DNA of 52,971 nt from NCBI RefSeq assembly GCF_030539355.1, contig NZ_JAUNSF010000010.1, positions 1-52,971 of the forward strand, in the 5' to 3' direction. Positions 32,357-35,283 of this stretch are shown piece after piece; position 1 is the first letter of the stretch, and the number at the start of each line of letters is the position of its first letter. The translations under genes were made by a program, and so were the position numbers. The notes below the pieces were generated by a model. That model did not search any database, had not been told where the DNA came from, and saw nothing but the letters and a program-made list of their open reading frames with translations. The stretch comes from Sutterella sp. (lineage in GTDB: Bacteria; Pseudomonadota; Gammaproteobacteria; Burkholderiales; Burkholderiaceae_F).

Positions 32357-33109
32357 TCAGAGGTCGTGAAGCAGTTCGTCGGGCTTCCTCGCCCGCATCT
32401 GCTTCTCGGCCTCTTCCCATCCGGGACAGATGCGCCCCACCTCGGCCCAGAAGCGCGCCGAGTGATTGAACTCCACGAGATGCGCGAGTTCGTGGGCGAT
32501 CACGTATTCGATCTCGCCGTCGGTGAGCGCCATCATGCGCCACGTGAGGCGAATGCTGCCCTTCGCCGAGCAGCTTCCCCAGCGCCCGCGCGCTGAGGTG
32601 ATGGAGATCCTGAAGGGCAGGCGCTGCGGCAGATGCGAGGCGTCGCCGATCAACCGCGTGAAGCACGCGTTGAAGACGCGGTCGGCCTCTTCCTTGAGCA
32701 TTCCGACGAGCTCATCACGGATCTTCTCCTTCGGCGCATCAGCCGGGCTTTTAAGCCAGAGCTCCAGTTTCCCGTCGCCCATCGGCATCTTGACGCAGGT
32801 CTTCATCCCGAGCCTCAGCACGGCCCTGCCGCCGCGCCAGGGGATCTCAACGCCGTCGGAGAGCCGGTCAGCCGTGAGCCGCGGTCTCTGCTCCTCGCCA
32901 GGCCTGATCTGCGCGAGCACCCAGTCCGCGCTCCTGAGGATGAAGGCCTCTATTTCCCGGCGCGTCGTTCCCGGAGGAACGCGGGCCTCGAGGGCGCCGC
33001 CCACGGCATAGAGAGAAAGTCTGCGGCGGCGGCCGTTCTCACGGATCACGTAGGGAATTCGCACGCCGCGAATCTCCACGCTCTGCGGATCGAGGTTACG
33101 TGAATTCAA
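32357..33109 (-). CDS. YgjP-like metallopeptidase (DUF45/M48-type, HExxH)
   Basis: A 250-residue cytosolic protein of the YgjP/DUF45 family of zinc metallopeptidase-like proteins. An N-terminal basic beta-alpha module (about 16-68: RRRRLSLYAVGG, then PPGTTRREIEAFI and SADWV) precedes a linker and the catalytic domain with HELAH at 206-210 and the third ligand H216. Its substrate is unknown; database names such as UTP pyrophosphatase are not supported by anything visible. The start is a TTG with AAGGG eight bases upstream, and only two bases separate it from the stop of the repeat-protein gene, so translation is probably coupled. It is the last gene of glyQ-glyS-plsC-repeat protein-peptidase. 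Confidence 0.85.
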   Translation of the reverse strand: MNSRNLDPQSVEIRGVRIPYVIRENGRRRRLSLYAVGGALEARVPPGTTRREIEAFILRSADWVLAQIRPGEEQRPRLTADRLSDGVEIPWRGGRAVLRLGMKTCVKMPMGDGKLELWLKSPADAPKEKIRDELVGMLKEEADRVFNACFTRLIGDASHLPQRLPFRISITSARGRWGSCSAKGSIRLTWRMMALTDGEIEYVIAHELAHLVEFNHSARFWAEVGRICPGWEEAEKQMRARKPDELLHDL

Positions 33110-33111
33110 GA

Positions 33112-34401
33112 TTACGACCCTTCAGAGACTTTCTTTTTTAGGCGTCCCATTACAGTTCCCGTAGCCAGATAAAATTCTTCACGGGAACTGAATCTCGAAC
33201 GCGCATCGATCAGCATTGCCTTTAATTCCGGCAACTCCGGAATATCGGGGAACATGCTTCTAAGATGCCGTTCCTTTCTTTTAAGCCATTTTCTCGGCGT
33301 ATCTTCCGGACTGAACGGACCGAGCCACAGCATGATTGTCCTTGCCATTCCGTTCACCGAATAGAGGCTTCTTCTCAGACGCGCATCCCGGGATACCAGT
33401 ACTGCAACCTTTAGATCCGCCAGGTCGTACTCGAAAGCCCACATCTTGTCCGGCAACGGGCGAGGAGAAACGCTGTCTGAAGAGTCCTGCACGGTAATTC
33501 CCTGCAGATCCAGATTGCTGCGCATGAAATTTATTGTTCTCTCCTCCTGCAAGATTTCAATCGCCCGCGATCTTGTCATTCCCTTGGGCACAGTAAAACG
33601 GAAGACCCCGGTTACATTGTCAAGTCCGCCATCAGGGGTTTCTTCCGTGTCCAAATATTCCAGAACCACCCTGTGTCTTCCCCACGGCATCTTCAGAAGC
33701 ACTGCTTCCTTCTTGCTTCCATACCAAAACTGATCTTTATGATCCTCGCGAAGCAGTTCCCTCCAATCTGACTTCAGCGTCCTGATCATCACGCACTGAG
33801 CCCATTCCCCGCAGAATTTCCGGTACAGCGATTCCAGTTCTTCGTCAGAGACTATCGGACTCTCCTTCCTCTCCGGCGTTTCACTTGTCTCATTTCGTGC
33901 CGAGAGCGAGCCCTGTTCGGACGGCCTGCTGCCTGCGATCCACTCCCCCTTCCTATCCAGCCACTTCATGACAGCCGACTCGGATGTCCAGGGATCCATT
34001 TCAACCGTCAGAATTGAGGGCTCCGTCCATTCCGGTCTTATCGACTCAAGGCGGCTGTTTCTTACCAGCCTGACCTCCGTCATCACCCCGCCGATCTCGC
34101 GTCGGACAACATTGATCCCCCTGCTGACGGCGCATTTCTCCAAGGCATCAAACGACTCCTCAGGCGAAATGCCTGCCCGACCGAGTTCTCCGTAAACCCA
34201 GTCGGCATTCTCGGACACATACCCGATCACGCGCTCCCTTGTCAGTCCATCAGAGGCCGTCATGTAAAGGCGCCCTGTCATCGCAGTATCCACGCGGAGT
34301 GTGCTGGTCTTTGTACGTCCGCTGCGAATGATCAGCACTCGGAACGTCCCTTTGGGCGTTGCGACGGCAATTATTTCCTTTCTCGGCAGTCTGAACGGCA
34401 T
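33112..34401 (-). CDS. Unrecognised protein with four copies of the YgjP N-terminal module, no catalytic site
   Basis: I do not recognise this 429-residue protein as a whole. It contains four diverged copies of the N-terminal module of the adjacent peptidase, at about residues 20-73, 108-157, 243-295 and 331-383. In the peptidase the module reads P-x-G-x-T-R-x-x-I-x-x-F-I-x5-W-V. Copy 1 keeps GLTRERVIGYV and ADWV; copy 3 keeps PKGMTRSRA; copy 4 keeps SLYSVNG against SLYAVGG; copies 2 and 4 keep the aromatic at the same spacing (W147, W372). There is no HExxH, signal peptide or membrane segment. Base composition is visibly lower in G+C: 33601-33660 is 30/60 and 33841-33900 is 31/60, against 39/60 in glyS at 35341-35400. 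The ATG at 34401 leaves 11 bases to plsC. Confidence 0.8.
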   Translation of the reverse strand: MPFRLPRKEIIAVATPKGTFRVLIIRSGRTKTSTLRVDTAMTGRLYMTASDGLTRERVIGYVSENADWVYGELGRAGISPEESFDALEKCAVSRGINVVRREIGGVMTEVRLVRNSRLESIRPEWTEPSILTVEMDPWTSESAVMKWLDRKGEWIAGSRPSEQGSLSARNETSETPERKESPIVSDEELESLYRKFCGEWAQCVMIRTLKSDWRELLREDHKDQFWYGSKKEAVLLKMPWGRHRVVLEYLDTEETPDGGLDNVTGVFRFTVPKGMTRSRAIEILQEERTINFMRSNLDLQGITVQDSSDSVSPRPLPDKMWAFEYDLADLKVAVLVSRDARLRRSLYSVNGMARTIMLWLGPFSPEDTPRKWLKRKERHLRSMFPDIPELPELKAMLIDARSRFSSREEFYLATGTVMGRLKKKVSEGS

Positions 34402-34412
34402 GGTGCTTTTTC

Positions 34413-35132
34413 TCAGCGAAGCTTCACATTGGCCTCGATCCACTGCTCGACCTCGTCGGTCACCTCGTGCGGATCACGGCCCTTGGTCTCAATGACAGGC
34501 CCCACGACCACGTCGATCGTGCCGGGAATCTTGGCGACGCTGTTCTTCGGCCAGCAGTAGCCGGCGTTGTGCGCGACCGGCAGGACGGGAAGGCCCAGGG
34601 CGCAGGCGAAGCGCGCGCCGCCCGTCTTCCAGCGGACGTGCTCGCCCGGCGGCACGCGCGTGCCCTCGGGGAAGAGCGTGATCCACCAGCCGCGCTTCTC
34701 GAACTCGGGACCGCGGCTCATGACCTGCTCGAAGGCCTTCCTGCCCTTGCCGCGGTCGATCGCCATCATGTTCATGCTCTTGAGCGCCCAGCCGAAGAAC
34801 GGAAGCAGGTGGAGCGACTTCTTGTAGATGAAGCAGGGCGGGTGCCTCAGGTAGGCGCCGAGCCAGAAGGGATCCCAGGCCGACTGGTGCTTCGCGAGCA
34901 CGACCACGGGGTAGTCGGGCATGTTCTCAAGGCCCGAGGCGCGGTAGTCCACCCCGCAGGTGACCTTGAGGAGCCAGAGGATCATCTTCGCCCAGGGGCG
35001 GCAGACGAGCTCGTAGCGGCGCTCGTAGCTCATGAAGGGCCACGTCACGAGGAGCGCGGCCGTGAGCAGGATGACGGTCACCGAGAAGAGCAGATAGAAG
35101 AGCCATCCGCGCAGCGTGTGGATGAAATTCAT
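34413..35132 (-). CDS. plsC: 1-acyl-sn-glycerol-3-phosphate acyltransferase (PlsC family)
   Basis: A 239-residue membrane-bound acyltransferase making phosphatidic acid from lysophosphatidic acid. One N-terminal membrane segment (about 8-35) is followed by the catalytic HQSAWD (HX4D) near residue 80 and the substrate motif FPEGTR near 153. I use the ATG giving MNFIHTLRGW, with GGGGA upstream, rather than a TTG eight codons earlier. In related bacteria gmhB commonly lies between glyS and plsC; here the 151-base gap to glyS contains no gene. Confidence 0.9.
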   Translation of the reverse strand: MNFIHTLRGWLFYLLFSVTVILLTAALLVTWPFMSYERRYELVCRPWAKMILWLLKVTCGVDYRASGLENMPDYPVVVLAKHQSAWDPFWLGAYLRHPPCFIYKKSLHLLPFFGWALKSMNMMAIDRGKGRKAFEQVMSRGPEFEKRGWWITLFPEGTRVPPGEHVRWKTGGARFACALGLPVLPVAHNAGYCWPKNSVAKIPGTIDVVVGPVIETKGRDPHEVTDEVEQWIEANVKLR

Positions 35133-35283
35133 GAGACTGAAATCCCCATAAAGCAAAGGCCCGCGCCGCCCATAAACCCTCCCGCCGGCGACTGCGGAGA
35201 AGATTATCAGAAGCGGGCCGCGGGCCCTCGGAACTCTTTCTGACGAGGCCGCCCGGGGCGGCCCCGCTCAAAAGAGGGATGGA

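Follow-up and report, generated by a model that had tools for sequence, protein, structure and literature searches.

The closest described systems to the locus reported here are the YgjP-like proteins of PF01863 (DUF45). In an extract of PMC8003623, E. coli ygjP is listed as 'putative metal-dependent hydrolase', and a table row of PMC12783615 labels Salmonella ygjP 'UTP pyrophosphatase'; the labels in these parts of the two papers differ and leave unsettled what YgjP-like proteins do. Among solved structures, Proabylysin (4jiu), a small zincin with 105 residues in its solved chain, is related to the YgjP-like enzyme studied here through its catalytic part, the match (E 8.7e-06) covering residues 172-236 of the enzyme and none of the N-terminal module. 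We report on a stretch of 52,971 nucleotides from Sutterella sp., called the window below (contig C68 of the source genome), in which such an enzyme is preceded by a gene, named Q here, whose product carries relatives of the enzyme's N-terminal module (N-module). A first-pass annotation of this DNA had read Q as four copies of the module, duplicated and detached from catalysis. Our analysis shows that the observation is in large part correct and concerns something uncommon, and that Q is better described as a split, multi-copy form of the N-module array that is fused to YgjP in relatives.

Gene Q and the adjacent enzyme

The YgjP-like metal enzyme of the window is encoded on the minus strand at 32357..33109 (250 aa, TTG start) and matches PF01863 with E 4.7e-41. 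Its own N-module lies at 32888-33085 on the same strand, and its zinc-site residues H206, E207, H210 and H216 (HExxH...H) are invariant across 17 aligned sequences. Gene Q (33112..34401, minus strand) fills the slot between plsC and ygjP; its reading frame runs from an ATG at 34401 to a stop at 33112 with 429 open codons, and the product is a 429-aa non-catalytic protein of N-type modules joined by linkers. Upstream, the plsC-like acyltransferase gene (34413..35156, minus strand) has its stop 11 nt before the ATG of Q. The names used for plsC and the other neighbours, all except YgjP, are presumptive and follow the look of the proteins. The coordinates, frame, product length and quoted residues in the first-pass annotation agree with the sequence, as does its statement that HExxH is not found in Q.

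Searched against Pfam, NCBIfam and PADLOC, Q has zero matches at E <= 1, the PF01863 model included, and a sequence search of the PDB with the same cut-off likewise finds nothing; PHROG gives a single weak match (E 0.44). No whole-protein relative of Q was found outside the source genome. A match in one other genome, G042 (E 0.004, one internal stop), coincides with two long reading frames whose products look by eye like respiratory-chain proteins, and it was rejected as chance.

At the junction of the two genes (33107..33124, minus strand, read directly from the sequence), the stop TAA of Q (33114-33112) stands 2 nt ahead of the TTG of ygjP (33109-33107), in line with the earlier placing of the peptidase gene two bases downstream. 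An AAGGG (33122-33118) precedes the TTG by 8 nt. The ygjP frame is closed by a TGA at 33124-33122, so that its upstream open frame amounts to 4 codons, and the open frames of Q and ygjP have 7 nt in common (33121-33115). Close to its 3' end, Q contains an in-frame heptamer A AAA AAG (33139-33133, minus strand), which we take to be a slippery-site motif. Programmed frameshift fusion of Q to YgjP was considered and rejected, because a -1 shift at the heptamer, though it leads into the ygjP frame, runs into the TGA at 33124-33122 ahead of ygjP.

Module copies in Q

We scored each putative copy in Q against a profile of 37 YgjP N-modules and against 1000 shuffles. The profile score is reached by none of the 1000 shuffles for copy 1 (34168..34371, minus strand, Q residues 11-78) and by none for copy 2 (33916..34107, minus strand, residues 99-162), and by their sequences these two can be taken as firm relatives of the YgjP N-module. 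For copy 3 (33505..33702, minus strand, residues 234-299), which also scores z 5.4-5.9 against copy 1, 22 of 1000 shuffles reach the score, and for copy 4 (33244..33435, minus strand, residues 323-386) 27 of 1000 do; the units had been proposed in the first-pass annotation from the same sequence, which makes the values of copies 3 and 4 somewhat favourable. In a separate test copy 4 was reached by 713 of 2000 shuffles, and it is missed at E <= 0.1 by the module model A4, from whose training it had been left out. The annotated count of four copies therefore holds firmly for two; the third likely belongs to the set and the fourth possibly does. The relation is specific to the N-module: neither the middle nor the catalytic region of YgjP matches the Q copies, whose scores there are reached by 48 to 773 of 1000 shuffles.

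Profiles built without Q give the same picture for the whole protein, with 0 of 2000 shuffles reaching its score for each of two such profiles (14 and 18 modules), and all eight other window proteins that were scored with the second of them either fail to match or score below zero. Against two earlier profiles, Q obtains 10.4 bits (32 modules, reached by 1 of 2000 shuffles) and 13.2 bits (nine modules of the genus, 0 of 2000). For the part of Q with copies 3 and 4, 14 of 2000 shuffles reach the score of a profile that itself contained copies 1 and 2. In pairwise comparison, the best BLASTP match of Q to YgjP places copy 1 on the N-module (51 columns, 27% identity, E 0.004). The z of copy 1 is 6.6 against the window YgjP module and 8.5 against that of the relative G008, and the corresponding values of copy 2 are 4.3 and 5.0; copies 3 and 4 score 2.6 and 2.4 against the window module. 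Two short likenesses pointed out earlier, PKGMTR (272) in copy 3 to PPGTTR (45) in YgjP and SLYSVNG (345) in copy 4 to SLYAVGG (32), are confirmed.

Structure prediction, proposed earlier as a check, succeeded in part: whole Q gives no usable model (pLDDT 35.6), while AlphaFold2 gives a confident model of copy 1 (pLDDT 87.0, pTM 0.70) from an alignment of nine rows, namely the four Q copies, the window YgjP module, three Sutterella seckii modules and one viral-contig relative. The model has strands at 2-5, 8-16, 24-27 and 35-39, followed by helices at 45-54 and 56-65, and no clear relative was found among solved or viral structures. The predicted fold supports one shared module fold, the alignment itself presupposing kinship. 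Chance resemblance, with Q an unrelated orphan, could appeal to the missing family match and to copy 4, which is unsupported in two tests; it has to face the 0/1000 and 0/2000 shuffles, the specificity for the N-module and a slot that is the same as that of the fused arrays described below. We regard it as scarcely credible in view of the Q-free profiles, the N-profile shuffles and the copy 1 fold.

Within the enzyme itself, the catalytic part was also considered as a relative of the module and rejected (N-module versus catalytic part, hhalign P 0.043 over 12 columns; Q copies versus catalytic part at chance). The middle region of YgjP gives a profile-profile P of 5.6e-4 with the N-module over 49 columns, at a probability of only 29.7; to judge from this alignment, it may be a distant N-module copy, in which case the family would begin as a module tandem.

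Fused arrays in the same slot

Relatives of plsC and ygjP occur together in 19 of 20 fetched regions, the twentieth being a chance hit, and in 14 of the 19 the lptD-surA-rsmA group lies on the other side. The slot was inspected by reading the open reading frames in nine regions of the same genus and by gene distances in ten other plsC-ygjP regions. YgjP frames were seen in six of eight further regions (that of G015 ends before the catalytic part, and the hit in G010 is not ygjP), and the remaining family genomes were surveyed through module hits alone.

In G008, ygjP and plsC are adjacent with nothing inserted and no array. The slot of G007, a species of the same genus, holds a YgjP reading frame of 481 residues with a 241-residue N-terminal extension, and this extension contains two extra modules, A and B, ahead of YgjP's own. 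All three G007 modules are recovered by model A2, built from eight modules (five of the window, three of S. seckii), with G007 itself untrained and its close relative S. seckii trained. S. seckii (the same-genus genome G004, taken to be of this species) has modules A and B in the YgjP reading frame in the same slot; no stop separates the plsC end from the array, which gives a 735-aa open reading frame (L034 8563-10770), and its true start was set by likeness to G007. Near its 3' end the plsC likeness in S. seckii changes frame, so that plsC, array and peptidase come to lie in one open frame. Fused two-module YgjP proteins are also present in two species of another genus: the extra copy of G031 has iE 1.4e-14 and lies beyond the stretch used for training, and that of G016 has iE 6.9e-9, with G016 absent from the training set. 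By eye, extra degenerate modules are possible in G090 and in the contig-cut G015, both excluded from our counts. Extensions of about 100-180 residues at the N-terminus of YgjP are seen in G006 (L037 8929-10224), G001 (L040 8494-9432) and G009 (L064 2901-3893), and no clear extra module was found in these three.

Among the regions inspected, a separate array gene is thus found in the window genome and in no other. The search for the gene pair elsewhere, suggested in the first-pass annotation, yielded fused forms in four genomes. The array is indeed a separate gene here; it is not simply detached from catalysis, since in sister species it is fused into the enzyme (G004 and G007, as also in G031 and G016).

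The fused forms raise the question of an assembly error, namely an indel within the 7-nt frame overlap that splits one fused gene. Modules and enzyme share one frame in both sisters, the two frames overlap here (33121-33115), and the source genome, of 3.24 Mb, is assembled in 203 contigs. Against this, the indel would have to be confined to 7 nt, and the TTG has an AAGGG at a distance of 8 nt upstream. We hold such an error to be very unlikely.

Occurrence of tandem modules

Using model A4 at E <= 0.1, we find tandem modules in five of 67 genomes of the family, those of the window, G004, G007, G031 and G016, and none in the other 62. The model was trained on three Q copies, the YgjP module of the window and those of S. 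seckii, and on none from G007, G031 or G016. In a draw of 300 genomes from the order, with E <= 0.01 as cut-off and up to 20 candidates scored per genome, so that some may have been missed, none outside the family has more than two hits. In the 21 non-family genomes with two hits, these are never in tandem, being separated by over 100 kb or placed on separate contigs. This is in accordance with the earlier statement that a single module is the normal state in the YgjP family. In many family genomes the module model repeatedly gives weak hits (E about 0.006-0.08) to frames of roughly 470-710 aa, near positions 5-38, and these were not counted; they look like one conserved unrelated protein. In two family genomes, second and divergent ygjP matches are seen (G085 C90 and G022 C73).

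These counts bear on the suggestion that Q is an inhibitor or a propeptide-like cap, released as a separate subunit. The position of the fused modules before the catalytic part is what such a cap would have, yet YgjP needs no array in the 62 of 67 family genomes without tandem modules, and on this comparison of genomes a cap appears quite unlikely.

Evolution of the array

A tree built on the GlyS, GlyQ and PlsC sequences of 19 genomes groups the window species (G000), S. seckii and G007 in a clade, with G008 next (support 80). Between S. seckii and G007, modules A and B show dN of 0.21 and 0.16 with dN/dS of 0.42 and 0.36, and the linker from array to YgjP shows a dN of 0.45 and a dN/dS of 0.69. 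The values for YgjP's own module are 0.09 and 0.22, and for the rest of YgjP 0.055 and 0.19, while seven neighbour genes range over dN 0.001-0.043 and dN/dS 0.01-0.11. The fused arrays thus change far faster than the neighbour genes, yet are constrained.

The simplest account of the distribution is a single gain before the window species, S. seckii and G007 parted, followed by fission here or by fusion in the sisters. An independent duplication of Q is conceivable, because the Q copies reach at most z 4.0 with modules A and B, no closer a likeness than that of copy 1 to the YgjP N-module (z 6.6 in the window, 8.5 in G008). On these scores Q may be a separate duplication unlinked to the sister arrays; fast change could also hide the link.

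Fast evolution is as well what a decaying extension would show, that is, duplicated leftovers under weak constraint and with little function, the split being one step of decay. The linker dN/dS of 0.69 agrees with this, and copies 3 and 4 are barely recognisable. The GC3 of Q is 0.61 against 0.79-0.92 in nine other genes, dropping to 0.51 at the 3' end, and its GC is also below that of the neighbours (the GC3 of the G007 extension is 0.67). The codon score of Q is weak, yet the best among the six frames; together with the low GC3 it fits weak constraint, and we count both against a role as targeting subunit. The next relative, G008, is without an array. Decay is harder to reconcile with the dN/dS of modules A and B, below 1 and below that of the linker, with the open frame that Q holds over all its 429 codons and the AAGGG ahead of ygjP, and with the recurrence of extra modules in a second genus. 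On the whole we think decay unlikely.

A possible role for Q

Extra modules recur in front of the enzyme and change rapidly under constraint, and the two genes nearly abut; this suggests a binding or targeting subunit. A working link between Q and the neighbour enzyme is likely, and the two genes may be translated together. We favour the reading that Q would bind YgjP or its substrate and act in trans as a targeting or recognition subunit of the enzyme, and give it, on what the sequences tell, about an even chance. In the ancestor of the clade of this species, S. seckii and G007, YgjP would have carried or gained extra N-module copies. In the two sisters these share a reading frame with the catalytic part that follows them, and here the array would have become a gene of its own, ending 2 nt before ygjP. 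Q would then bind the YgjP protein or the YgjP substrate and steer the enzyme in trans, its rapid sequence change supplying new specificity; contact, one array origin, the targeting role and the identity of the substrate are what we infer. The full course of events, a two-gene YgjP whose N-modules were duplicated, fused and then freed, and which steer the enzyme to changing targets, is more tentative and seems to us rather doubtful as a whole. If true, a two-gene YgjP would let specificity evolve apart from catalysis. That close relatives range from a single module through fused arrays to a split one offers a handle on the role of the N-module and on the substrate, and the module is amenable to study alone, in cis and in trans.

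Comparison with known systems

Compared with PF01863, Q is alike in its relatives of the N-terminal module and adjoins a full member of the family, but it differs in lacking a catalytic region, HExxH and any Pfam match at E <= 1, and in the number of modules, which is two to four where the family has one. With the fused YgjP proteins of G031 and G016 it shares extra N-modules of like kind. The multi-module YgjP proteins of S. seckii (L053) and G007 have these too, and with them Q also shares the slot. The multi-module YgjP is one reading frame, whereas here there are two genes and probably more modules.
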